Positions 2,777 to 17,098 of a stretch of 55,456 bases of DNA are shown here, one piece after another; positions within the stretch are counted from its first letter, which is position 1; the number at the start of each line of letters is the position of its first letter. Source of the stretch: a candidate division Zixibacteria bacterium HGW-Zixibacteria-1 (GTDB lineage Bacteria > Zixibacteria > MSB-5A5 > GN15 > PGXB01); assembly GCA_002838945.1 (NCBI GenBank), contig PGXB01000022.1, positions 1 through 55,456 on the forward strand, given 5' to 3'. The notes under the pieces are model-generated. The model searched no databases. It was not told the DNA's origin and was given only the letters and a program-made list of their open reading frames with translations. Made by a program: the position numbers and the translations under genes.

Positions 2777-4936
2777 ATGCGAGACTTCTTGCCCTTGCAA
2801 CTATCCAAAAATATTACCGTTACGATAATCATTCTGCTGCTGGCCTTGCCGCTCGCAGGTTTGGCCGGTGATGGCATAGATATAGCCGACATGGATCTCG
2901 ACCGGCTGCTTGATGACATTGTCGTCTCCGCTTCGAAGAAGGCCGAAAGACTGGAAGAGACGCCAGCCAATGTTTTCGTCATTACACGAGATATGATCGA
3001 AAATTTTGGGTGCCAGAATATCGGTGAAGCGCTTTCTTTGGCGCCCGGTTTATACATCACCAACGACTATTCATTATCTCAGATAGGCATCAGGGGTGTT
3101 TCCGAGTACGGTGACTGGAACAGTCACGTGCTCGTTTTAATCGATGGCCGACCGACATGCGAACAATACGGCGGGACCAGCTCAATAGACAATATCGGGC
3201 TGGACATCGATAATATTGATCGGATAGAAGTGGTCAAGGGTCCCTCATCATCTCTTTACGGAAGCAATGCCTTCTACGGCCTGATCAATCTTATATCAAA
3301 AAATCCCGATGAAGAAAATTTGACGGTGGCTACGAAGTACTCATCGGAACTTGATATAAGAACAATCAGCCTGAGTCTGTCACAGAAGGTCAACCCCGAT
3401 CTTTCTTTCCTTGTCACCGGATCACTGTCCGACCAGGAAGGGAATAAACTGTATTTTCCGGAATTCAGCGACTTTGCCGATTCCAGTATGTTTGCCCTGG
3501 ATGCCGACGGGTATAATCAGTATTATCTTGATTCCGGTTCCTTTACCGAGGGGTGGGCGGACAAAAAGAATACTCTCGATAAATACTCTCTTTATAGTAC
3601 ACTTAATTATCACGGATTGTATGCCATGGTTCACGTGGCGAAAATGAATACCGGAATTGCCCATTCAATGTGGGGTTCGGTGTTCAACCGGAGTGAAAAT
3701 AAATTCAAGGAACAGAAGATCAATATCGACCTGGGATTTAAACACCAGTTTTCTTCGACTATCGACTGGAAGGCCAGCCTCGGATACGATCACTACACTT
3801 GGGTCGATTATATTCTTTACAATTACGGCGTCGCCGACCCCGATGGATATTACTCACCGGGGCCTATCTGGCAGGACTGGGAACATGACCGGGCGATGAC
3901 AGCATCATCTCAGGTCCATATCTCGGTCACACCGTCATATGACATAATTGCCGGGGCCGAAGTTCAGTTCCATACCATCCGACATGAATCCGGCGAGACC
4001 GACCGGAGCGGTGAAATAATAAGTGAAAATGTCATTCCGAAGGAATCCGTCGAAAACAAAGGTCGGATTTATAATTTGTACATCCAGAATGATTATTCTT
4101 TCGGGAATCATCTCAAGATAGTGGGCGGTCTTCATCTCAACCACTACACCTATACCACTGGCAAAGCCATGCCAAAGGCAGCCCTGGTTTATACGCCGTA
4201 CTCCGCGGGCACTTACAAATTGATTGTGGGTCGTGGATTCAAGTCGCCGAGTTTTTATGAATTAACCTTTACCGACGGGACATTCTATGCGGCAAACCCC
4301 GATCTCAAACCGGAATTAATCACAAATTATGAAGTTGTCGCTTCGCACTCGCTGCCTCATGGGCTGTATCTGGACATTGCGGCCAATTACAGCCGCGTCA
4401 CAAATCAGATTGTCCAGACAATTGTGGATAGTTCTGATCCGGACCACCCCGGCGGCGATTTTCTGGATGAAATATCGCAGTTCCATAATATAGGTCGGAG
4501 ACAAATCCGGTCGGCCGAACTAACAATCAGGCGAAAAAGTGTTTACAGGCTCAGCGGATTGGCCGGCATAACCTACCAGGAAGTCTCTTCCACCGAAGAA
4601 TCGGCCATATCCAGACAGTTTAATTCCCCGCGGTGGCTTGGAAATGCCGGATTGAATTATCAACTCGTTCCGGAGCGACTCAATGCCTCGGTACGCGTCT
4701 CTTATATCGCTCACCGCTATACGTGGGACGGCAGTCAAATACCGGAAATGTTGACGATTGACATGTCCCTCTGCGGCACAAACATTATCCGGGGTACCGC
4801 CATGACTGTCGGTATAAAAAACCTTCTTAATCGAGACAACCCTATTCCTTTCAGTTACGACTACGCTCCCTCGAGAAGCATTCAGGGTACCGGTCGATCT
4901 CTTTATATCAGACTGGAATCCAGCATAGGAATATAG
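2777..4936 (+). CDS. TonB-dependent outer-membrane receptor
   Basis: A 719-residue receptor. An N-terminal signal segment (about residues 12-31) is followed by a TonB-box-like DDIVVSASKK near residue 50. The plug domain runs to about residue 175, with typical blocks such as ETPANVFVITRDMI, NIGEALSLAPGL, IRGVSEYGD and DRIEVVKGPSSSLYG. A long 22-strand-type barrel follows. The last residues are ESSIGI rather than the usual terminal Phe. The ligand cannot be read from sequence; the plug resembles the colicin/siderophore/cobalamin receptor type. The ATG follows an AAAGGGGA site. It is the first gene of an apparent operon with a YfiR-like protein (25-base gap) and a hybrid sensor kinase, so it may act in sensing rather than only in uptake. 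Confidence 0.9.
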   Translation: MRDFLPLQLSKNITVTIIILLLALPLAGLAGDGIDIADMDLDRLLDDIVVSASKKAERLEETPANVFVITRDMIENFGCQNIGEALSLAPGLYITNDYSLSQIGIRGVSEYGDWNSHVLVLIDGRPTCEQYGGTSSIDNIGLDIDNIDRIEVVKGPSSSLYGSNAFYGLINLISKNPDEENLTVATKYSSELDIRTISLSLSQKVNPDLSFLVTGSLSDQEGNKLYFPEFSDFADSSMFALDADGYNQYYLDSGSFTEGWADKKNTLDKYSLYSTLNYHGLYAMVHVAKMNTGIAHSMWGSVFNRSENKFKEQKINIDLGFKHQFSSTIDWKASLGYDHYTWVDYILYNYGVADPDGYYSPGPIWQDWEHDRAMTASSQVHISVTPSYDIIAGAEVQFHTIRHESGETDRSGEIISENVIPKESVENKGRIYNLYIQNDYSFGNHLKIVGGLHLNHYTYTTGKAMPKAALVYTPYSAGTYKLIVGRGFKSPSFYELTFTDGTFYAANPDLKPELITNYEVVASHSLPHGLYLDIAANYSRVTNQIVQTIVDSSDPDHPGGDFLDEISQFHNIGRRQIRSAELTIRRKSVYRLSGLAGITYQEVSSTEESAISRQFNSPRWLGNAGLNYQLVPERLNASVRVSYIAHRYTWDGSQIPEMLTIDMSLCGTNIIRGTAMTVGIKNLLNRDNPIPFSYDYAPSRSIQGTGRSLYIRLESSIGI

Positions 4937-4961
4937 CCCCGCCGTCCGGATAAAAAAGAAA

Positions 4962-5579
4962 ATGACAACTTTTAAGTCGCTCATATTGATATTTTTAATA
5001 ATCGCGGTTGCGTATCCGGCATTATTTTCTGACTGTGCCGCGGCCGTCAGTAAGGATGCGGTACCGCCAAAGCTGGCTCTGCCGCTGTTTCTGAAGATTA
5101 TTACGTACGACCAGTGTTTCAATCGGGATAGTATTTCAAAGATTGTTGTTTATATAGTCAGTGATAAATCCGTTTCCGAATCTTTCGAGCAGGCGGCCGA
5201 ACTGCAGGATTTTATTCACTCGACCGGGCCGTTGAAGGTCCATGATATTCCGGTAAGACCGGTATTCGTCTCCATTCCGGAGCTGAAGGACTCCCTCAAG
5301 AATGATTCGAAAGATCAGTATCGCATCACCGTTCTCACTAATCTCAAGCGGCAGGAAACGCGCGAAGTCGTGGAGGCCTGCCGGTCGAATCATGTATCGA
5401 CATTTGCACTTGACCCCGCATTGCTTGTTGACGGCGTGTCGGTCAGTGTAATTTCGGATAGAGACGGGGCGCATATACTCATCGATATTTCCTCCTCACG
5501 AATGGAACAGACGCAATACAGCGCCCACCTTCTGAAAATATGTAAGGTATACAAAAATGGTGACTTACATAGTGAATAA
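4962..5579 (+). CDS. YfiR-like periplasmic protein (DUF4154)
   Basis: A 205-residue exported protein with a signal peptide ending near CAAA (residues 25-28). The body fits the YfiR/DUF4154 pattern: a start such as PPKLALPLFLKIITYD, a middle IVVYIVSDKSVSESF, and a late ISDRDGAHILIDISSSR. In Pseudomonas, YfiR is the periplasmic repressor that binds the periplasmic domain of the diguanylate cyclase YfiN. Here the gene sits between a TonB receptor and a kinase with a YfiN-like periplasmic region. Its last 23 bases overlap the start of the kinase gene, which argues for coupled translation. I infer that it controls the kinase. The family call rests on pattern memory, not a search. Confidence 0.75.
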   Translation: MTTFKSLILIFLIIAVAYPALFSDCAAAVSKDAVPPKLALPLFLKIITYDQCFNRDSISKIVVYIVSDKSVSESFEQAAELQDFIHSTGPLKVHDIPVRPVFVSIPELKDSLKNDSKDQYRITVLTNLKRQETREVVEACRSNHVSTFALDPALLVDGVSVSVISDRDGAHILIDISSSRMEQTQYSAHLLKICKVYKNGDLHSE

Positions 5580-8124
5580 ATGGTCGCTTCAGATCCAGAT
5601 AACTATTCTTGTGACGGTAGCGGTAATCTCCGTGTCCGCAACCCTGGGATTATCTTCCTATTTTGCCCTCAAGAGGCAGATGCATGATAATCTGGACGAC
5701 AAAGCGCAGAGCGTGGCCACCATTACAGCCGCCAATCTTGTCCCCGGACTGGAGTTTGATGATCGTGATTATATCGCAGACGTGGTCGGTTCCCTGTTCC
5801 GCGACGGTGATATCCGTGCCGTGATCGTATATGATAGCACCGCCTCGCTGATCCATTCGATTATCGTTGACAGCACTCTTGAGAGGCAACTTGATACCGA
5901 ATTTTTGAAAGATAATGAATCTTGTGAATTACGAGATCAATTTCACCTGGCCCTCAGGCCGATTGTACATATGGATACGTACCTCGGCAAAGTATATATT
6001 GTTGTCCGTCAGGACGAAGAAAAATCATCAGCCGCCGACACCTTCATATTTGTCATAATTCTGGCAATCGCGCTTCTGATCGCATCCATAACAGTCGCCA
6101 GGATTGCCGCCAGAAGGATACTGCGTCCGATAAGGACATTCGAGACCGCGGCGGTTCGCGTCAAAAGCAGCGACACCCTCCATCCCATCGATATCGCTGA
6201 TCTCCATCCTGATTTTTTGACGCTTGGTCAGTCTTTTAATGCCATGCAAAGCAGATTGCGGGCGGTCTTCACCGAACTGGCCGATTCCCGCGACCAGCTC
6301 GAATTCAGAGTGCGTGAACGAACCAAACAGCTGGAAAAGGAAATTGAAGATCGCAAAAAGAACGAATTTGAACGCACCCAGCGTTTGATCAGGGTTCAAT
6401 TGCAGCGAACGGCAATTGCCGAAATGACTACGGATGATCGTATCACGAAACAGCCTTTTGAACTTGCCGCAAGGGCGATAACGGAAATCTGCTCGCACTC
6501 CCTCAATGTGGAAAGAGTCGGCATCTGGCTGTTCGAAAACAATCAGGAGCAGATTAAATGCATCGATCTCTACGATCGAGCGGCCGATGGCCATTCCAAT
6601 AGCATGGTAATTCCAAGGGCATCTGCGCCGCGATATTTTTCACACCTTTCGCACGACCGTGTCCTGGCCTGTGATGATGCCAGGACTGCTGTTTCGACCA
6701 ATGAATTTGCGGACGCCTACCTCATTCCCTTCGGAATTACTTCAATGATGGACGCTTCAATCAGAATATCAGGCGAATTTATCGGAATTGTCTGCTGTGA
6801 ACATATCGGCCCGATACGCCACTGGCATTCGGATGAAATCAAATTCGCGGATGAAATATCGGCTCAGATTGCCCAGGTATTCGCTGAATCGCAGCGGCGC
6901 GAAATGGAAAAGGAGCAGCGGATATTGAACGAGCGCCTGGAGAAGGCCGAGCGGATGGAATCGCTGGCGGTTCTTGCCGGGGGAGTGGCCCATGATCTTA
7001 ATAATATGCTCGGACCGGTCGTTGGATATGCGGAGTTACTGCTGAAAAGCGATCTTACTGATGATAAGGTCCGCAAAAAGATTGAACGCATCGCAGCGTC
7101 AGCGGGAAGTGCCGCCGATGTTATTCAAGATTTGCTGGCCCTTGCAAGAAGAGGCCGTTATGAAATGACACATATCAAGCTAAATGATGTTTTAAAAAGC
7201 TATTTTGATTCTCTTTCTTTTATGCAACTGGCGAAGAAAAAGCCCGAGATCGATGTCTTGGTCTCATTAACCGCCGATGATTCATCAATATTCGGTTCAA
7301 AACTTCATCTGGAAAAAGTCCTCATGAACCTGGTGCACAATGCATTTGAAGCTATTACAAATGATGGAACAATAACGGTCTCGACGGAAAAAATACGCAT
7401 CAACAGACTGGAATACACCGGGATGGAGATTGAACTGCGTGATTATATGGCGCTTCGAGTCAAGGACAGCGGGGCTGGAATTGCCCCTGAGGATATGCAT
7501 AAAATCTTTGAGCCATACTTTTCGAAAAAAGTCATGGGCCACAGTGGCAGCGGCCTCGGACTGAGTGTGGTTTACGGAATTGTGAAGGATCACAAGGGTT
7601 ATTATGATATCAGCTCGGAATATACTAAGGGTACCGAATTTGTTCTGTATTTCCCATTTTCAACTGAAGAAAAAATATCCGATTCCAAAACACCCGCAGA
7701 TGATGGTGCCGTCGGTGTAGCCGGGAACGAGACAATTCTTGTTGTCGATGATTCGGCGGAACAGCGCGATATATCCAGGGAAATGCTGGAAAACATGGGT
7801 TATACTGTCTTCACCGCCCAAAATGGTCATGCCGGCGTGGATTTCTTGAAAACCCACGAGGTCGATCTGGTAGCCCTTGATATGATAATGGAAGACGGGT
7901 TTGACGGCCTTGATACATTTCAGGAAATTCTGAAATTCAAACCTAATCAGCCTACCATCGTGGTGAGTGGATATTCAGCCACCGACCGGGTCCAGACAAT
8001 GCTTAATCTGGGGGCAAGCACCTATGTCAGGAAACCTTTTGGCTTCGAATCGCTGGGTAAGGCTGTCAGAACGACATTGGAGGCGGATCGACAAAGAATG
8101 GCCAGGTCTCAGGCCGACGCATAG
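5557..8124 (+). CDS. Membrane hybrid histidine kinase (CHASE8-like, HAMP, GAF, HK, REC)
   Basis: An 855-residue sensor kinase. The order is: transmembrane segment about 13-33; periplasmic region about 35-160 with an LEFDDRDYIADVVGSLF stretch like the CHASE8 domain of YfiN; a second membrane segment about 161-182; HAMP about 185-240; coiled coil; GAF about 290-450; histidine phosphoacceptor H479 in GGVAHDLNNMLG; and an ATPase domain with N box (NLVHNAFEAI), G1 (DSGAGIAPEDMHKIFEPYFS) and G2 (GSGLGLSVVYG). A C-terminal receiver starts near residue 725, with acidic DD and the likely phosphoacceptor D775. No output domain or separate response regulator is encoded nearby, so a downstream partner must lie elsewhere. 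It overlaps the YfiR-like gene by 23 bases and ends the operon. Confidence 0.9.
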   Translation: MVTYIVNKWSLQIQITILVTVAVISVSATLGLSSYFALKRQMHDNLDDKAQSVATITAANLVPGLEFDDRDYIADVVGSLFRDGDIRAVIVYDSTASLIHSIIVDSTLERQLDTEFLKDNESCELRDQFHLALRPIVHMDTYLGKVYIVVRQDEEKSSAADTFIFVIILAIALLIASITVARIAARRILRPIRTFETAAVRVKSSDTLHPIDIADLHPDFLTLGQSFNAMQSRLRAVFTELADSRDQLEFRVRERTKQLEKEIEDRKKNEFERTQRLIRVQLQRTAIAEMTTDDRITKQPFELAARAITEICSHSLNVERVGIWLFENNQEQIKCIDLYDRAADGHSNSMVIPRASAPRYFSHLSHDRVLACDDARTAVSTNEFADAYLIPFGITSMMDASIRISGEFIGIVCCEHIGPIRHWHSDEIKFADEISAQIAQVFAESQRREMEKEQRILNERLEKAERMESLAVLAGGVAHDLNNMLGPVVGYAELLLKSDLTDDKVRKKIERIAASAGSAADVIQDLLALARRGRYEMTHIKLNDVLKSYFDSLSFMQLAKKKPEIDVLVSLTADDSSIFGSKLHLEKVLMNLVHNAFEAITNDGTITVSTEKIRINRLEYTGMEIELRDYMALRVKDSGAGIAPEDMHKIFEPYFSKKVMGHSGSGLGLSVVYGIVKDHKGYYDISSEYTKGTEFVLYFPFSTEEKISDSKTPADDGAVGVAGNETILVVDDSAEQRDISREMLENMGYTVFTAQNGHAGVDFLKTHEVDLVALDMIMEDGFDGLDTFQEILKFKPNQPTIVVSGYSATDRVQTMLNLGASTYVRKPFGFESLGKAVRTTLEADRQRMARSQADA

Positions 8125-8267: not shown

Positions 8268-8297
8268 TTGACAATCAGGAGTTTTTTGGTATATTAT
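8268..8297 (+). promoter_or_regulatory. Sigma70-type promoter for the metal efflux operon
   Basis: A perfect TTGACA at 8268-8273 is followed by TATATT at 8290-8295 (16-base spacer) or TATTAT at 8292-8297 (18 bases). It lies about 30 bases before the small Cys-rich gene and heads the plus-strand cluster up to 13401. Confidence 0.6.
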
Positions 8298-8325: not shown

Positions 8326-8664
8326 ATGGTTTTGATGGTATATAAGATAATGAAAGCAGCCATAAGTCAATTAGCAGGCATCAGTCCCGTTAAAGCGGCG
8401 GCAATACTGGGACTGGTATTTCTTGTCATTTTCGCGGCCTCGTGCGATTTTTTATCGGGGCATTATGACCGGGCCTGCGAAAATATCTGCGAGGACTGCA
8501 GCGACTGCGTCACCTGCTCGCCGACTCTTCACATGCTGTCGGACAGCGGCCCTGATTTCCGTCATATAGATCATGTATATGGATGGCACATCCCTTTACC
8601 GTCACCACAGCGCCTTAATATTCTCTCCACCGGCATAGATCATCCTCCCCGAAATATCTCGTAA
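8326..8664 (+). CDS. Small Cys-rich predicted lipoprotein
   Basis: A 112-residue protein I do not recognise. A hydrophobic segment ends in a possible lipobox, VIFAASC (residues 36-41 before the Cys). A dense cysteine run follows, CENICEDCSDCVTC, which looks suited to binding metal. The C-terminal half has several His residues and no clear domain. Possible starts are ATG at 8326, 8335 and 8350, none with a strong ribosome site. It lies directly downstream of a good promoter and 131 bases before the metal-efflux adaptor. A role in metal binding or sensing for the RND pump is plausible inference only. Confidence 0.55.
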   Translation: MVLMVYKIMKAAISQLAGISPVKAAAILGLVFLVIFAASCDFLSGHYDRACENICEDCSDCVTCSPTLHMLSDSGPDFRHIDHVYGWHIPLPSPQRLNILSTGIDHPPRNIS

Positions 8665-8794
8665 TATCCATTACGCCGGCATCAGCCGGCCCCTAAATTC
8701 CAGAAACAAAACTGGAACCGAACTGGCGGCCATGTTCAGGCTGTTATTCGGAAGATTAATTTTTGTAAATGCGATTAATTCTGGAGGTTTGGTA

Positions 8795-10324
8795 ATGAGA
8801 TCCTGTTTGAGATACATTTTTATTAGTTTAATGGTAACCGGGGCATTTTTGATAACCGGCTGCAATTCCGGCCAGTCGGATATCCACGCCGATGCAGCCG
8901 GAGCCGAAACGGGCCATGAAGGGCATAGCCATGCCCCCGGCGAACACGGGCAGGCTGTTTCTGCAGGAGCCGGCGAAACTGAGATTTCGAACTGGTGCAC
9001 CGAACATTCCGTACCGGAATCGGAATGCACCAAGTGCAACCCCGCCCTTGAGGCAAAATTCAGGGCATCCGGCAATTGGTGCGAGGGCCACGGCGTCCCC
9101 GAATCGCATTGCAGGCTATGCAACCCCGGAATCAAATTTCCGCAGGAGGAAATATTAATAACGCAGGAGCCTGAATTTTCGGGTAACGGTATTGAAATAT
9201 CGCTGAATTTTCGACCCAATGCAGCGGTATGTGCCACCAACGACGCCCTTATTCAATTTGCCTCGGCTGTCACTGCCGAACGGGCCGGAATCAAGGTGCA
9301 GGCGGTACAATCGGCACATTATGAATCGGCAATAAATGCTCCGGCGGAAATAGTCTTTGATGAAACCGGAGTGACCGTTATTGCTTCCACCGTTCAGGCT
9401 CTGGTTTCCCGCTGGTTGATTTCGGCCGGTGATGTCGTATATAAAGGTGATAAACTCGCCATTCTTAATTCACCCGAAATAGCTCAGTTGAAATCATCGC
9501 TGGTTGCAATGCACGCCCGTTACGAGGTGGAGCGGAAAGAACTCGAGCGCCATCAGTATATGAATGAAAGGGATTTAATAAGCAGGGCCGAACTGGACCG
9601 TCAGGAGTCCGCGGCGGAACAGGCGCGGGCCGAATATATCGGCACCAGGGGAATGCTGCTATCGGCGGGATTATCGGAGAGCGATATCGATGAGGTGATA
9701 AAATTCGGCGGCTTATCCAATCAATTTATCATGCGCTCTCCCTCAGACGGCCTGGTGGTCGAACGCATCGCCCGGCTCGGCGAATTGATCGACGCCGGAA
9801 AGGTATTTGCTATTGTCGCCGATCCGAGATCGATGTGGATCGAGGCCCGGTTGACCGAGGAGCAGATCAAGGATGTCAGAATCGGCGACCAGCTTACATT
9901 CAGTTCCGACGGCAATGGTATTGATCGGATCGGCGGTGAGATTATCTGGGTCTCGCGCTTTTTGGATACTCACACCAGAATGGGGACGGTCCGTGCCAAA
10001 GTCATTGATCCCGATCACGCGCTGCATGCCGGTGAATTCGGCCGGGCGAAAATATTGCACGCAACCGATCGTGTCGTCTCCCTCGTTCCGAAGGATGCCG
10101 TGCAGTGGGAAGGTTGCTGCAATGTGGTTTTTATAAAGGAAACTCAGGATCGGTACCGCCCCCGCAAGGTGCAGCTGCTCGATGGCGATGGTCCTTACTA
10201 TCAGGTAACCGACGGCTTGCGGCCGGGTGAGGAAGTTGTGGTTGACGGAGCCTTTCTTTTGAAAACCGAATTGAAAAAATCAAGCATCGGCGCCGGCTGC
10301 TGCGGTCTTGATCCGGTCGGCTGA
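8795..10324 (+). CDS. Heavy-metal RND efflux adaptor lipoprotein (CusB-like)
   Basis: A 509-residue membrane-fusion protein that would join the inner-membrane pump to an outer-membrane channel. The lipobox ends at C23 (LITGC). A His-rich stretch (H31, H41, H44, H46, H51) follows. Then come two copies of W-C-x2-H-x-V-P-E-S-x-C-x2-C-N-P (C68/H71/C78/C81 and C96/H99/C106/C109), spaced 28 residues apart. The rest is the usual lipoyl/hairpin/beta-barrel adaptor body, including ALVSRWLISAGDVVYKGDKL and FIMRSPSDGLVVERIARLG. The C terminus has Cys pairs (EGCCN, GAGCCG). I chose ATG 8795 because CTGGAGG lies seven bases upstream. It is five bases from the pump gene. The Cys/His modules suggest soft metals such as Cu, Ag or Zn. 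Confidence 0.88.
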   Translation: MRSCLRYIFISLMVTGAFLITGCNSGQSDIHADAAGAETGHEGHSHAPGEHGQAVSAGAGETEISNWCTEHSVPESECTKCNPALEAKFRASGNWCEGHGVPESHCRLCNPGIKFPQEEILITQEPEFSGNGIEISLNFRPNAAVCATNDALIQFASAVTAERAGIKVQAVQSAHYESAINAPAEIVFDETGVTVIASTVQALVSRWLISAGDVVYKGDKLAILNSPEIAQLKSSLVAMHARYEVERKELERHQYMNERDLISRAELDRQESAAEQARAEYIGTRGMLLSAGLSESDIDEVIKFGGLSNQFIMRSPSDGLVVERIARLGELIDAGKVFAIVADPRSMWIEARLTEEQIKDVRIGDQLTFSSDGNGIDRIGGEIIWVSRFLDTHTRMGTVRAKVIDPDHALHAGEFGRAKILHATDRVVSLVPKDAVQWEGCCNVVFIKETQDRYRPRKVQLLDGDGPYYQVTDGLRPGEEVVVDGAFLLKTELKKSSIGAGCCGLDPVG

Positions 10325-10329
10325 GGTGC

Positions 10330-13300
10330 ATGATGATTAGACATCTTGTTGAATTCACGCTGCGGTACAGGTATGTCACCCTGGCGCTGGCCGGTTTGCT
10401 ATGCCTTGTCGGCCTCCTGGCACTCTGGCATCTCCCCTTCGATGCCTTTCCGGATACAACACCGGTCCTTGTCCAGGTAAACGTCGCCGCCCCGGGCTGG
10501 GCGCCCGAGGACCTTGAACGCCTGGTCTCATATCCACTGGAGCAGGTCCTCACCGGCCTTTCCGGTTTGACGGAGGTCCGATCCGTCACCAAGTACGGGC
10601 TGTGTCAGGTCACGACGATTTTCGATGATGGGATCGATTTGTATCTGGCCCGTCAGCAGGTGAGCGAGCGCCTTCTGGCCGTCGATCTCCCCGAAGGTAT
10701 CGGCGCCCCGCAGCTCGGACCGGTCTCCACCGGTTTGGGAGAAGTTTTCCATTATATAGTCATTGCGCAATCCGCCGATGAAACCACCGCCCGCACCGCC
10801 CAGGACTGGATCGTCAAACCGCAGCTTCAGGCCGTGCCGGGAGTTGCCGAGGTGAACAGCTGGGGCGGATTCGTAAGACAGTACATGATTCTTTTCGATC
10901 CGGATCGAATAGCCGGATACGGTTTATCAATCAATGAGGTCGTCGAGACCATCCGCCGCGATCTTGGTAACGTCCCCGGCGGGCAGGTTGTCCGGGGTGG
11001 AGAAATGACCATCATCCGAGGCGTGGGAACGGTAGAATCGATAGAACAGATAAAAAATATTGTCCTTGTTAGTCCCGAAGGCGTCCCTGTTACGGTCAGC
11101 AACATTGCGGAAGTGGTCATCAGTCATGAAATCCGGCGCGGTGCCGCAACGTACAATGGACAGGGTGAAGCCGTTCTGGGCCTCGGATTCCTGATCACCG
11201 GTGAAAACCCCGCGGAAATTACCGAAAGACTCTCCACCCGTCTCGCCGAAGTGCAGCAAAACTTGCCGGACAATATCAAGGCCGTCCCCGTTTATGAACG
11301 AACCACTCTGGTCAGCAAGGTGCTGAGAACCGTCGAGCATAATCTGTTGTACGGTGCTTTGCTTGTTATTGCCGTCTTATTCGTCTTCCTGGGAAATCTC
11401 CGCGCCGGACTGATCGTGACATCGGCAATTCCATTGTCAATGATGTTTGCTTTCGACATGATGTCCCGCGTGGGTATTGCAGGAAGCCTCATGAGCCTCG
11501 GCGCCATCGACTTCGGGCTGGCGGTGGATAACGCCGTCATACAGGTCGAGAATGCCGTCCGCCGGCTTTCGCATGATACATCCGGGCGCGACCGCCTTCA
11601 GGTTATTCGGGATGCCATTCTCGAAGTACGCAAACCGACCCTGTTCGGCGAATTGATCATCATCATTGTTTACCTGCCGATTTTGACACTGCAGGGCGTC
11701 GAAGGAAAACTTTTCCGTCCGATGGCCCTGACGGTTGTGTTTGTACTCACCGGGTCATTGATTCTGTCATTTACCGTCCTCCCCGCCCTCATCGGCACTT
11801 TTCTTACCAAACGAATCCGCGAACGCGAGCCGATATTTGTGGGATGGCTGAGAACAGCTTATCAACCCGTGCTCAATGCGGCGATTAAACACAGCAAAGC
11901 CGTTCTTGCAACCACTTTAGCACTCGTGGCCGGGGGTATCCTGCTCTTTACTCAACTGGGATCCGAGTTCGTACCACGGTTGAGTGAAGGAACGGTCGTG
12001 ATCAATTTTGTCCGCCTCGCCGGTATATCAATCGATGAATCCGTGAAATACAATACCATCATCGAGAAAAACCTGCTGGAAAAATTTCCCGATGAAATTT
12101 CGCATGTATGGACCCGGACCGGCACCGCCGAACTGTCAACCGATCCCATGGGTCTTGAGCTTTCCGATATGTTCATCTCACTCAAACCTCGGTCGCAATG
12201 GACAAAAGCATCGAACCAGCAAGAGCTGGTCGCCGCCATTGACGGCGAACTGGCCGATCTCCCGGGCCAGAATCGGATTTTTACCCAGCCGATCGAAATG
12301 CGCGTGAATGAAATGATTGCCGGAATACGCTCCGATATCGGTATCAAGCTGTTCGGCGATGATCTGAAGATCCTCGAGGAGAAAGCGGAAGAGATCGCCG
12401 CCCTCGTCGAAAGGATACCGGGAAGTTCCGATGTATCGGTGGAACAACTGACAGGGCAGCCACAGGCGCAAATATCGGTCGACCGACAGCGCCTGGCCCG
12501 GTTCGGGCTCACGGCACGTGATGTCCTTACGGCCGTGGAAAGTATCGGCGGGATTATTGTGGGCGATGTGTTCGAGGGCCAGAAGAGAATCGACCTGGTG
12601 GTACGAATCGATACGACTCTTCTTGCCGGTCCGGAAGATATCGACCGGATACTCCTTCGATCACCCACCGGAAGCCTGGTCGGACTTGATCGGGTTACGT
12701 CGAGTACTCTCGATGAGGGACCGGCGACAATCACTCGGGAATGGAGCAAGCGGCGCATCGTGATTCAGTGCAATGTTCGTGATCGGGATATGGGATCATT
12801 CGTCAATGAACTGCGGGACCGAATCGAAACCGATATCGAACTGCCTTCGGAGTATTTCATCCGCCTCGGCGGAGAATTCGAAAATCTCGAAAGAGCGCGC
12901 GTCCGGCTTGCCATCGTCGTTCCTATCGCTCTGCTGCTGATCTTCGGATTGCTCTACTGGACGTACAAGTCCGTGCGGGATGCCTTGCTTATATTTTCGG
13001 GAATTCCGCTCGCCGCTCTTGGTGGTGTTGTCATCCTCGCGTTTCGAGGAATGCCTTTTTCGATTTCCGCCGGTGTCGGCTTCATAGCCCTTTTCGGTAT
13101 TGCCGTCCTGAACGGCCTGGTGCTTGTTTCCTCCATCAAACGCATGCGATCCGACGGCATGGATATTACCACGGCCGTAAAAGAAAGCGCCCTTGTCAGA
13201 CTCAGGCCGGTGTTCATGACCGCTTTGGTGGCGGCGCTTGGATTTGTCCCGATGGCGATATCGACCGGTGTCGGCGCCGAGGTTCAGCGACCTCTTGCCA

Positions 13301-13401
13301 CCGTTGTTGTCGGCGGAATTCTGACCTCCACGGCACTTACACTGATAGTCCTGCCGGCTTTGTATGTAACATTTGGCCGCCGCACGGAGGCGGAACTATA
13401 A
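10330..13401 (+). CDS. Heavy-metal RND efflux pump (CusA/CzcA family)
   Basis: A 1023-residue proton-driven inner-membrane exporter of normal family length with the expected 12 membrane segments and two large periplasmic loops. HME-RND hallmarks include AFPDTTPVLVQVNV near the start. The fourth membrane helix carries D394-x5-D400-x6-E407 (DFGLAVDNAVIQVE), the acidic set needed for metal-proton exchange in CzcA. The second half ends with the usual FGIAVLNGLVLVSS and LRPVFMTALVAALGF blocks. The start (ATG 10330, or 10333) is preceded by a TGAGG site overlapping the adaptor stop codon, so translation is coupled. No CusC/TolC-type gene follows. An unlinked outer-membrane channel must complete the pump. 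Metal specificity is not determined. Confidence 0.93.
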   Translation: MMIRHLVEFTLRYRYVTLALAGLLCLVGLLALWHLPFDAFPDTTPVLVQVNVAAPGWAPEDLERLVSYPLEQVLTGLSGLTEVRSVTKYGLCQVTTIFDDGIDLYLARQQVSERLLAVDLPEGIGAPQLGPVSTGLGEVFHYIVIAQSADETTARTAQDWIVKPQLQAVPGVAEVNSWGGFVRQYMILFDPDRIAGYGLSINEVVETIRRDLGNVPGGQVVRGGEMTIIRGVGTVESIEQIKNIVLVSPEGVPVTVSNIAEVVISHEIRRGAATYNGQGEAVLGLGFLITGENPAEITERLSTRLAEVQQNLPDNIKAVPVYERTTLVSKVLRTVEHNLLYGALLVIAVLFVFLGNLRAGLIVTSAIPLSMMFAFDMMSRVGIAGSLMSLGAIDFGLAVDNAVIQVENAVRRLSHDTSGRDRLQVIRDAILEVRKPTLFGELIIIIVYLPILTLQGVEGKLFRPMALTVVFVLTGSLILSFTVLPALIGTFLTKRIREREPIFVGWLRTAYQPVLNAAIKHSKAVLATTLALVAGGILLFTQLGSEFVPRLSEGTVVINFVRLAGISIDESVKYNTIIEKNLLEKFPDEISHVWTRTGTAELSTDPMGLELSDMFISLKPRSQWTKASNQQELVAAIDGELADLPGQNRIFTQPIEMRVNEMIAGIRSDIGIKLFGDDLKILEEKAEEIAALVERIPGSSDVSVEQLTGQPQAQISVDRQRLARFGLTARDVLTAVESIGGIIVGDVFEGQKRIDLVVRIDTTLLAGPEDIDRILLRSPTGSLVGLDRVTSSTLDEGPATITREWSKRRIVIQCNVRDRDMGSFVNELRDRIETDIELPSEYFIRLGGEFENLERARVRLAIVVPIALLLIFGLLYWTYKSVRDALLIFSGIPLAALGGVVILAFRGMPFSISAGVGFIALFGIAVLNGLVLVSSIKRMRSDGMDITTAVKESALVRLRPVFMTALVAALGFVPMAISTGVGAEVQRPLATVVVGGILTSTALTLIVLPALYVTFGRRTEAEL

Positions 13402-13766: not shown

Positions 13767-14846
13767 ATGAAAAAATCATGGTTCTTTCCGGCCGGAGTGC
13801 TTGGTATCATGTTGATTCTCGGCCTGATCTTCTCGGCTTGCTCGGATGATCCGACCGGCCCTTCCGGCAAATGGGCCTGGCGCCCGCTCGGGTCGGGGAC
13901 AAATGGCTCGGTCGCGGCACTTACAGAGTACAACAACAAATTAATCGTGGGCGGATGGTTCTCCGCTGCCGGTGACTCCACGGCACATAACATGGCCGCC
14001 TGGGACGGTTTCAAATGGTCAACTCTCGGTTCCGGGTGTGACAACGTGGTCAACGTAGTTGAAGTCTATAATGGCAAGCTGTATGCCGGGGGTGGATTCA
14101 CCGTAGCCGGCGGTGTAGCCGCCAATAGAATTGCGTCCTGGGATGGCTCTGCCTGGGCTTCTTTGGGAACCGGCATGACCGGCCCTGATGTCTATGCCAT
14201 GGCCATATATGATGACAAGCTGATTGTGGGCGGAAATTTTAGATTCGCCGGCGGACTCGCCGCCGACTACATCGCCGCCTGGGATGGGACAAACTGGTCA
14301 ACTGTCGGATCAGGCGTGAACGGGGTTGTCTGGGGACTGGAAGTGTACGACGGCAAGTTGATTGCCAGCGGATATTTTACTTCGGCCGGCGGTACCGCGG
14401 CTGATGGAATCGCTTCATGGGATGGAACCAACTGGGCGCCTCTGGGTTCGGGCGTGGACAATGACCCTTGGGCAACGATTGTATATAACGACAAGCTGGT
14501 TGTCGGCGGCTCTTTCATACATGCCGGAGGAGTCAGTACCGACTACATTGCGGCCTGGGATGGTTCCTCCTGGTCGCCGCTGGGAGCCGGAATGGATCAA
14601 TCCGTATATGCGCTGAGCGTTTTTAACGGCAAACTGATTGCCGCCGGATTGTTTTCGGAGGCCGGCGGTGTCGCTGCCAATAAAGTCGCGTCCTGGAACG
14701 GCTCCTCCTGGTCTGAGGTCGGTGGCGGAACAAATAATAGAATCCTCGAATTCGAAGTCTGGAACGGTAAGCTCTACGGCGGTGGCGAATTCAATGTCGC
14801 GGGCGGCGACAGCATCAATTACATCGCCGAGTGGAGCTATAAATAA
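13767..14846 (+). CDS. WDG-repeat lipoprotein, predicted seven-bladed propeller (copy 1)
   Basis: A 359-residue lipoprotein with a lipobox at C25 (IFSAC) followed by SDDPTGPS. The mature part is about six full units of 46 residues plus a closing partial unit. Each unit follows the scheme Y-[ND]-x-K-L-[IV]-x-G-G-x-F-x-x-A-G-G, then I-A-x-W-D-G-x-x-W, then L-G-S-G. The last unit ends IAEWSYK and would complete a velcro-closed ring of seven blades. Such repeats are common in secreted proteins of unknown function. The ATG follows GGAGAGG. It is the first of three tandem paralogues that share the signal segment, blade number and C terminus. The propeller fold is inferred from the repeat length; ligand and role are unknown. 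Confidence 0.8.
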   Translation: MKKSWFFPAGVLGIMLILGLIFSACSDDPTGPSGKWAWRPLGSGTNGSVAALTEYNNKLIVGGWFSAAGDSTAHNMAAWDGFKWSTLGSGCDNVVNVVEVYNGKLYAGGGFTVAGGVAANRIASWDGSAWASLGTGMTGPDVYAMAIYDDKLIVGGNFRFAGGLAADYIAAWDGTNWSTVGSGVNGVVWGLEVYDGKLIASGYFTSAGGTAADGIASWDGTNWAPLGSGVDNDPWATIVYNDKLVVGGSFIHAGGVSTDYIAAWDGSSWSPLGAGMDQSVYALSVFNGKLIAAGLFSEAGGVAANKVASWNGSSWSEVGGGTNNRILEFEVWNGKLYGGGEFNVAGGDSINYIAEWSYK

Positions 14847-14883
14847 TCAATTATTTGCATCAATCCTGTAATTGGTGAGACAA
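14847..14883 (+). repeat. Duplicated intergenic spacer, first copy
   Basis: The spacer between copies 1 and 2 ends with ATTTGCATCAATCCTGTAAT, then TGGTGAGACAA before the ATG. The spacer between copies 2 and 3 (15976-16012) is nearly identical in sequence and position. This shows that gene and spacer were duplicated together as one unit. Confidence 0.8.
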
Positions 14884-15975
14884 ATGAAAAAAGTCGCATT
14901 AATAATTGCCCTGATAATCGGTCTTCTCCTGATTATCTGCGCATTTTTATCTGGCTGCTCTGATGATCCGACGAGCCCGACTGGACCAAAGGGCAATTGG
15001 GCGTGGCGCCCTCTTGGATCGGGGACAAATGGCCCTGTCGCCGCGTTTACAGTGTACAATAACCAATTAATCGCAGGCGGATTATTTACGTCTGCCGGGG
15101 ATTCAACCGTCAGCAATATTGCGTCGTGGGATGGCTCCAATTGGTCAACCCTCGGTTCCGGGATGAGCGCTTGGAGATGGGTTAATGCCGTCGAAGTATA
15201 TGGCGGTTCGTTATATGCCGGGGGGGGATTCATCGTAGCCGGCGGCGTCGATGTCAATCATATTGCGGCCTGGGATGGTTCTGCCTGGGCGCCCGTGGGA
15301 GCCGGAGTGAACGATATGATTTTTTCCATGACCGTTTACGACAATAAATTGATTGTGGGCGGACAATTTACTACCGCTGGCGGGAGCGGCGCCAATTTCA
15401 TTGCGGCCTGGGATGGGGCCGTCTGGACGGCGCTTGGATCAGGAGTAAATTCAAGTGTCTTTGCTTTGTCGGTGTACGACGGTAAATTGATTGCCAGCGG
15501 ATATTTCTCAGCTGCGGGGGGGAACCCTGCCAATGGGATCGCCTCCTGGGATGGGGCCGCCTGGGCACCCCTTGGTTCTGGTGTGGACAATGAACCCTGG
15601 GCAACGACAGTTTACGATAACAAACTGATCGTCTGCGGCAAATTCACTCAGGCCGGAGGGGTGGATGCAAACAATATTGCGGCCTGGAACGGATCCTACT
15701 GGTCACCGCTGGGTACCGGGATGGATTCTTCCGTAATTTCGCTGGAAGTATTCAACGGCCAGTTGATTGCCGGCGGCTATTTCAACACGGCCGGCGGCGT
15801 CAGCGTAGGTAAAGTGGCTTCATGGAACGGTTCATCCTGGTCATCGTTCGGCGGCGGAACAGACCAGGAAATCCTGGAATTCGAAGTGTGGGGCGATAAA
15901 ATGATCGCCGGTGGTCAGTTTCTGGTTGCAGGCGCCGACAGCATTAATCACATCGCCGAATGGAGCTATAAATAG
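14884..15975 (+). CDS. WDG-repeat lipoprotein, predicted seven-bladed propeller (copy 2)
   Basis: A 363-residue paralogue of the preceding gene. The lipobox ends at C25 (FLSGC) and is followed by SDDPTSPT. Units of about 46 residues repeat with the same GG-x-F-x-x-AGG and WDG-x-x-W cores, again closing with HIAEWSYK. I prefer ATG 14884 over an upstream TTG at 14872 because it aligns with the MKK start of copy 1 and has GGTGAGA in ribosome-site position. It ends with TAG, which therefore acts as a normal stop in this genome. Copies 1 and 2 differ throughout, so the duplication is not very recent or has diversified. Function unknown; likely anchored in the outer membrane. Confidence 0.8.
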   Translation: MKKVALIIALIIGLLLIICAFLSGCSDDPTSPTGPKGNWAWRPLGSGTNGPVAAFTVYNNQLIAGGLFTSAGDSTVSNIASWDGSNWSTLGSGMSAWRWVNAVEVYGGSLYAGGGFIVAGGVDVNHIAAWDGSAWAPVGAGVNDMIFSMTVYDNKLIVGGQFTTAGGSGANFIAAWDGAVWTALGSGVNSSVFALSVYDGKLIASGYFSAAGGNPANGIASWDGAAWAPLGSGVDNEPWATTVYDNKLIVCGKFTQAGGVDANNIAAWNGSYWSPLGTGMDSSVISLEVFNGQLIAGGYFNTAGGVSVGKVASWNGSSWSSFGGGTDQEILEFEVWGDKMIAGGQFLVAGADSINHIAEWSYK

Positions 15976-16012
15976 ACAACCATTTGCATCAATCCTGTAA
16001 TTGGTGGGACAA
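15976..16012 (+). repeat. Duplicated intergenic spacer, second copy
   Basis: Nearly identical to 14847-14883, differing at only a few positions (for example GGTGGGAC in place of GGTGAGAC). It marks the second junction of the tandem gene array. Confidence 0.8.
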
Positions 16013-17098
16013 ATGAAAAAACTTCGGTTAATGCTTACATTGATAATCGGAAGCATCCTGATTATCGGCGCTTTGTTTTCCGGTTGTTCGGATGATCCGA
16101 CAGGACCAACGGCCAAGTGGGCCTGGCGTCCACTTGGTTCGGGGTCAGCCTACGCTCTCGGGGCGCTGACAGTATACGATAATAAAGTATTTGCTGCCGG
16201 AAATTTCTTGGATGACGTCGATTTTATGGCCAACGATATCGTGATATGGGACGGTTCTGACTGGTCGATCCACGGATCAGGGACGGATAGCATGGTTCTT
16301 GCCATGACCGTTTATGACAACAAGTTGATTGTCGCTGGTCAATTTTCATCCGTCAACGGGGTCAGCGCGAGCAAAATTGCGGCCTGGGATGGTTCTGCCT
16401 GGACCCCGCTGGGATCAGGAGTGGATCATCGGGTTTATGCCATGGTCGTTTATGACAACAAGCTGATTGTCGGCGGCGAAATTACTTCCGCCGGCGGAGT
16501 AAATGTAAATCGTATTGCGGCCTGGGATGGATCTTCCTAGACTCAACTCGGATCCGGTATTACCGGATATGTCTATTCGCTCTGTGTGTACGACAACAAG
16601 CTTATCGCCGGAGGGTGGTTCACCTCGGCCGGCGGCGTTGGCGCCAGAGGAATCGCGGTCTGGGATGGCTCTTCCTGGAGCCCGCTTGGGTCAGGCTTTA
16701 CGGGTGATAATGACGAGGTCTTTTGTCTTTCCCCTTACGGCGACAAATTGATTGCCAGCGGATATCTTGATCAGGCGGGATCGGTCAATGTCAATAATAT
16801 CGCGGCTTGGGATGGTTCTGCCTGGACAGATCTGGCACCAGAGATGAATAATGGGATTAGTCCACTTATCATATTTAACAATAAATTGATTGCCGTGGAA
16901 AATTTGACATCACCCTTCGATCCAAGCGCCTATAGAATCTTTTCCTGGAACGGATCTTCCTGGTCCCCGCTGGGGTCAGGCATGAATGGAAGGATCCTTG
17001 ACTTTGCGGTTTTCGGCAACAAATTGATCGCATGTGGAGAATTTGACATGGCCGGCGGCGACAGCGTCAACTACATCGCCGAATGGAGCTATAAATAG
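16013..17098 (+). pseudogene. WDG-repeat lipoprotein copy 3, interrupted by an amber codon
   Basis: The third tandem copy, about 361 codons. It has the same lipobox C25 (LFSGC, then SDDPTGPT), the same 46-residue units and the same C-terminal YIAEWSYK. It is interrupted by an in-frame TAG at 16538-16540. The codon occupies the second Trp of a WDG-x-x-W core: DGSS-stop-TQLGSG here against DGSSWSPLGAG in copy 1. One TGG-to-TAG change explains it, and the frame stays open on both sides. Copy 2 terminates normally at a TAG, so general amber readthrough is unlikely. Options are a recent pseudogene, a truncated four-blade product, or a sequence error. The downstream half looks intact. Confidence 0.75.

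Follow-up and report, generated by a model that had tools for sequence, protein, structure and literature searches.

Three plus-strand genes at positions 2777-8124 of the window, the 55,456-nucleotide stretch of DNA analysed here, encode a TonB-dependent receptor (TBDR), a divergent YfiR/DUF4154 protein, and a CHASE8-like hybrid histidine kinase (Table 1). We propose, with slightly better than even confidence, that this triplet constitutes one outer-to-inner-membrane signalling unit: as a go-between, the YfiR-like protein would dock onto a segment of the receptor and control the kinase. Such a unit is supported by the identities of the parts, their tight gene order, its wide conservation, the alternation between TBDR and OmpA-type partners, natural fusions of DUF4154 to kinases, and an N-terminal segment in the linked receptors. 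The original prediction of a receptor, a YfiR-like protein and a CHASE8-type kinase in tightly spaced or overlapping genes is borne out by open reading frames, Pfam matches, relatives, profile comparisons and a predicted fold: genes 1 and 2 are separated by 25 bp, and genes 2 and 3 overlap by 23 bp.

Table 1. Features of the receptor, YfiR-like protein and kinase genes, with positions in the window.
Feature	Position	Strand	Basis
TonB-dependent receptor, 719 aa (gene 1)	2777..4936	+	ORF, Pfam
Receptor pre-plug N-terminal segment, residues 33-55, GIDIADMDLDRLLDDIVVSASKK	2873..2941	+	position and own family alignment
YfiR/DUF4154-like periplasmic protein, 205 aa, signal-like hydrophobic N-terminal helix (gene 2)	4962..5579	+	Pfam, relatives, profiles, fold
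YfiR-like protein C-terminal stretch, residues 172-194, matching the YfiB-binding/proposed YfiN-binding surface of P. aeruginosa YfiR	5475..5543	+	
Membrane hybrid histidine kinase, 855 aa (gene 3)	5557..8124	+	ORF, Pfam
CHASE8-like periplasmic sensor, residues 43-148, flanked by two membrane helices	5683..6000	+	Pfam, hhalign, fold
HAMP, residues 184-236	6106..6264	+	Pfam
GAF, residues 303-440	6463..6876	+	Pfam
HisKA (residues 473-532) and HATPase_c (residues 582-702)	6973..7662	+	Pfam
Receiver (REC), residues 727-837	7735..8067	+	Pfam

Directly 3' of the triplet, at window positions 8326-13401, lie genes for a Cys-rich protein of 112 aa, a CzcB-like adaptor with a Cys/His-rich N-terminus, and an RND pump. 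We considered a link between these metal RND genes and the triplet and dropped it, because a strong promoter-like site (a consensus match only) intervenes at 8268-8297, which suggests that the metal-efflux genes form a separate unit; in addition, none were seen beside other window-type triplets. Farther along, at 13767-17098, consecutive genes encode a tandem family of similar lipoprotein-like proteins (SGCSDDPTGP...WAWRPLGSG). A search against Rfam gave no match within the window.

The profile check attached to the original prediction had a divided outcome, in that the window proteins themselves remained below the cut-offs, while their relatives and profile-profile comparisons supported both assignments. 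Gene 2 matched DUF4154 (PF13689) with 14.8 bits (E 0.03; Pfam cut-off 24.9) and gene 3, besides clear matches to HAMP, GAF, HisKA, HATPase and REC, matched CHASE8 (PF17152) over residues 43-148 with 24.3 bits (E 3.9e-5; cut-off 27); because these two scores are sub-threshold, the window sequences alone only hint at a YfiR-like protein and a CHASE8-like domain. In genome G015, however, the protein that corresponds to gene 2 scored 30.6 bits against DUF4154, and five further homologues (G100, G066, G112, G106, G107) scored 39-54 bits (to 53.6), all above the cut-off. Likewise, the transducers from two related triplets matched CHASE8 with 48.5 and 52.1 bits. When 13 window-type proteins were aligned by hhalign with 79 DUF4154 proteins, the probability was 98.5 with an E of 3e-15. 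The periplasmic parts only of nine window-type kinases aligned with 61 CHASE8-type transducers at a probability of 98.3 and an E of 1.2e-14, and this 61-member comparison set itself matched E. coli DgcN with an E of 1.4e-10. Swapped cross-controls for the two comparisons remained below 1% probability.

The N-terminus of the kinase was predicted to fold as a membrane helix, a CACHE/PAS-like domain, a second membrane helix and a HAMP domain; CHASE8 is a member of a CACHE-like clan (PMC8846402). For gene 2, an AlphaFold2 model was obtained with a pLDDT of 81, from an input alignment that held DUF4154 rows, so that the model is not fully independent of the family assignment. It matched YfiR crystal structures with Z scores of 12.5-13.1, at about 2.8 Å over about 140 residues (142 at best); for 4zhu, Z was 13.1 and the Foldseek E was 7.6e-5. 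Through relatives, profile comparison and predicted fold, gene 2 is thus firmly identified as a divergent YfiR/DUF4154 protein, and the periplasmic domain of gene 3 is, by relatives and profile comparison, firmly assigned to the CHASE8 type.

One of the best-conserved stretches in the window-type YfiR-like proteins, NLxS[SA]xxEGxxFSAxLLK, maps to residues 163-184 of YfiR. The C-terminal surface of YfiR binds YfiB and probably YfiN too (PMC4655355, PMC4887326), and by analogy it offers a fitting target for a segment of the TBDR. The cysteines of gene 2 (Cys 25, 52, 140 and 194) provide no matching conserved pairs for the disulfides Cys145-Cys152 and Cys71-Cys110 of P. aeruginosa YfiR, pairs that are not defining for the Pfam DUF4154 family overall. 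As only Cys194 is widely kept in its own subfamily, we rejected redox control through cysteines, as in YfiR/HmsC, as unsupported.

The same gene order recurs in several families of the window's phylum (L009, L010, L011, L037), where it occurs with two different DUF4154 subfamilies. In this phylum, 53 of 129 genomes contain DUF4154. At many of the loci it lies between a TBDR and a kinase, while other copies have a chemoreceptor gene as neighbour or are solitary; the genome that supplied the window also has a second, typical DUF4154 gene (L001:1480-2022; G000:C51:23739-24170) with no adjacent TBDR or kinase. At one of the loci, genes resembling those for molybdenum cofactor synthesis, read by eye only, follow the triplet (L009:9500-15274).

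A first scan of a public collection with the window subfamily gave no confirmed relative. The other DUF4154 subfamily yielded 80 loci, labelled Acidobacteria, Deltaproteobacteria, Nitrospirae, Verrucomicrobia, Planctomycetes, Gemmatimonadetes, Armatimonadetes, Ignavibacteria, Gammaproteobacteria and others. The full order of TBDR, DUF4154 and CHASE8-type transducer was present in 58 of the 77 informative loci, those with sufficient flanking DNA; as the loci were chosen by similarity to triplet-type DUF4154, this should not be taken as an unbiased rate. A TBDR lies directly upstream of DUF4154 in 63 of 78 loci, and a CHASE8-type transducer directly downstream in 71 of 79 (55 histidine kinases, 6 GGDEF proteins and 10 other or truncated). 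Nearly all DUF4154 loci found in Desulfobacterota are triplets. The triplet survey proposed with the original prediction thus found the arrangement conserved far outside close relatives, in many phyla. Because a REC-GGDEF gene adjoins the kinase or triplet in about ten loci, the output there may again be c-di-GMP. Across 24 loci, distances between YfiR-like proteins correlated with those between sensors (0.37) and between TBDRs (0.23), both above all 500 permutations, and the correlation between sensor and TBDR did not exceed all permutations; the YfiR-kinase core correlation was 0.37 too, so that this test, weak and limited to 24 loci, gives the sensor no preference over the core of the kinase.

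To see the receptor beside its alternative, we turn to Pseudomonadota, where, from a less biased Pfam-profile search of 299 genomes, 90 DUF4154 loci were examined with flanks of 1.5-2.5 kb, in which more distant partners are missed. A TBDR was present in 48 of them and a YfiB-like OmpA protein in 13, and both occurred together in none (Fisher p 1.6e-5, ignoring relatedness), which agrees with the predicted substitution of a receptor for YfiB. In five proteins DUF4154 is fused to a histidine kinase, with an N-terminal DUF4154 domain followed by a coiled coil, one membrane helix and the kinase (L363:1121-3088, L373:2402-4303, L379:1085-3055, L380:2360-4159, L381:473-3067; one with a receiver). 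These natural fusions back the predicted link to a phosphorelay. No CHASE8 part was found in the five, one of which sits directly behind a TBDR that bears the segment motif described below. The direction of change implied by calling the operon a "rewired" YfiBNR is not supported: within the searched collections, the order TBDR, DUF4154, kinase is both more frequent and more widely distributed, and because the receptor form is the broader, the direction is best left open or turned round. YfiBNR may be a special case.

Gene 1 matches Plug (82 bits, residues 59-168) and the TonB barrel (120 bits, residues 277-683), and Pfam found only these two domains in it, with no STN domain. All NCBIfam matches are far under the cut-offs and give no assignable receptor type, and we therefore make no claim about the ligand of the receptor. 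DUF4154-linked TBDRs share a conserved pre-plug segment with the consensus DLTxLSLEDLMxIxV, followed by TSVSKK, which we read as TonB-box-like. We scored 70 of the 104 TBDRs from 11 genomes with a matrix that had been trained on other phyla. Where a TBDR was linked to a typical DUF4154 gene, the score was 25-47 bits, as compared with at most 13.8 bits, and mostly below 7, for unlinked TBDRs in the same 11 genomes; one ambiguous carrier (L210, 30 bits), encoded on another contig, corresponds to a tandem TBDR from a DUF4154 operon. Among Pseudomonadota TBDRs outside the training set, 18 of 25 scored above 14 bits. The segment also scored 28 bits in a TBDR that is clustered with DUF4154 and a chemoreceptor, in the order TBDR, 434 aa protein, DUF4154, chemoreceptor (L120:4448-10651).

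In the window receptor, the segment GIDIADMDLDRLLDDIVVSASKK is a diverged version of DLTxLSLEDLMxIxV plus a TonB-box-like VSASK, and against the motif derived from other phyla it reached only 7.2 bits, inside the noise of unlinked TBDRs and too low for the motif by itself to pick it out. Window-type receptors generally carry a diverged segment, DIADMDLDRLLDDIVVSASKK (3.6-9 bits against the matrix), at the same position and conserved within their own family. A tandem pair of TBDRs adjoins DUF4154 and a kinase at L094:6045-10596; the two are 80% identical over the first 55 aa, 37% in the plug region and 27% in the rest, so that the N-terminal end looks as if it had been preserved or copied for its own sake. 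Barrel-like outer-membrane proteins of about 345 aa (OM343) stand beside DUF4154 and chemoreceptor genes at L012:8918-9949, L013:8003-9031 and L100:4923-6023, with a PF13557 match in one and a sub-threshold match in another. After the signal peptide they carry an LSLEELLSLNL-like segment, which at 4.5-9.6 bits against the matrix is suggestive only. We propose from these sequences that the pre-plug segment of the TBDR docks the YfiR-like protein, although it could mark a TBDR subfamily instead.

The main rival explanation, which we consider rather unlikely, casts the YfiR-like protein as a small ligand-binding protein: the TBDR would be a transporter that brings in the ligand, not a docking partner, and the liganded protein would act on CHASE8 in the manner of LuxP and LuxQ. 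The model of gene 2 is about equally close to a single-domain substrate-binding protein of Rhodothermus marinus (Z 14.5), to ABC-type binding proteins (3lkv, Z 13.8) and to YfiR (Z 13.1), where differences in Z of about 1 are counted as ties. Moreover, the YfiR pocket that is used by YfiB also accommodates vitamin B6 and tryptophan (PMC4887326). This explanation does not account, however, for the segment that marks the linked TBDRs and is shared between different barrels, nor for the OmpA partner at other loci. Quite improbable, in our estimate, is a metabolic or historical co-occurrence, in which the TBDR would be a nutrient or metal transporter under the kinase, DUF4154 would have the kinase as its sole target, perhaps sensing envelope stress, and the TBDR would give no signal. 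TBDR genes often adjoin regulators, and DUF4154 genes exist without a TBDR too, but gene order and spacing hardly vary from phylum to phylum, and a TBDR and a YfiB-type partner exclude each other. Transenvelope signalling of the FecA/FecR type with another partner can barely be credited: the TBDR does adjoin a membrane signalling protein, but it has no STN domain and the cluster contains neither FecR nor a sigma factor.

In the signalling unit that we favour, the TBDR would serve as the receptor in the outer membrane, and the YfiR-like protein as a go-between in the periplasm, which would keep the kinase in one activity state by binding to its CHASE8 domain. The conserved N-terminal segment beside the TonB box would engage the same YfiR-like protein in a ligand- or TonB-dependent manner, and capture or release of the go-between would switch the kinase and thereby the phosphorelay. 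We infer physical docking, a ligand and a downstream target; by analogy with YfiR, control would probably be exerted by repression, which in YfiBNR is lifted when YfiR is sequestered at the outer membrane. More broadly, and with a little less than even confidence, we suggest a general transenvelope class, in which DUF4154 docks onto a modular N-terminal peptide of TBDRs and is coupled in turn to histidine kinases, diguanylate cyclases or chemoreceptors, and YfiBNR would be the special case that has an OmpA protein in the receptor's place.

Our search of the open-access full-text literature (subscription papers and preprints lay outside its scope) turned up no description of this receptor-YfiR-kinase system, and "TonB-dependent receptor" and "YfiR-like" were not found together in one paper there. 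With this trio, bacteria may have a common means of sensing beyond the outer membrane that has been overlooked. If so, it would constitute a second route, besides FecA/FecR/sigma, from the ligand of an outer-membrane receptor to inner-membrane signalling in many phyla. It would also give a function to a common TBDR subclass and to DUF4154, bear on the origin of YfiBNR, and pose the testable question of whether a short segment by the TonB box captures a periplasmic regulator upon receptor occupancy.

Several known systems share part of this layout. With FecA-FecR-FecI it shares a TBDR as outer-membrane signal receptor, a role that is proposed here, but it does so without STN domain, FecR or sigma factor. 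As in LuxP-LuxQ, a soluble periplasmic protein with a binding-protein-like fold is proposed to act on a hybrid kinase through the kinase's periplasmic domain; in contrast to that pair, the window combines a single-domain YfiR fold with an outer-membrane receptor in the gene set. HmsCDE of Yersinia pestis contains a periplasmic protein of the same YfiR/HmsC family, which represses a membrane signalling enzyme (PMC8846402), yet its output is a diguanylate cyclase, and the cysteine redox control reported for it is unsupported in the window protein. The layout also resembles that of YfiBNR of P. aeruginosa and YfiR-DgcN-YfiB of E. coli, in which a YfiR-family gene directly precedes a CHASE8-type membrane transducer, accompanied by a gene for an outer-membrane partner; yfiR and dgcN of E. 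coli overlap by 11 bp, and genes 2 and 3 of the window overlap as well. Apart from the three of four cysteines of the YfiR-like protein that its own subfamily does not conserve, the differences lie at both ends: the outer-membrane partner is a TBDR instead of the OmpA lipoprotein YfiB, and the output is a GAF-HisKA-HATPase-REC hybrid kinase instead of a GGDEF cyclase.
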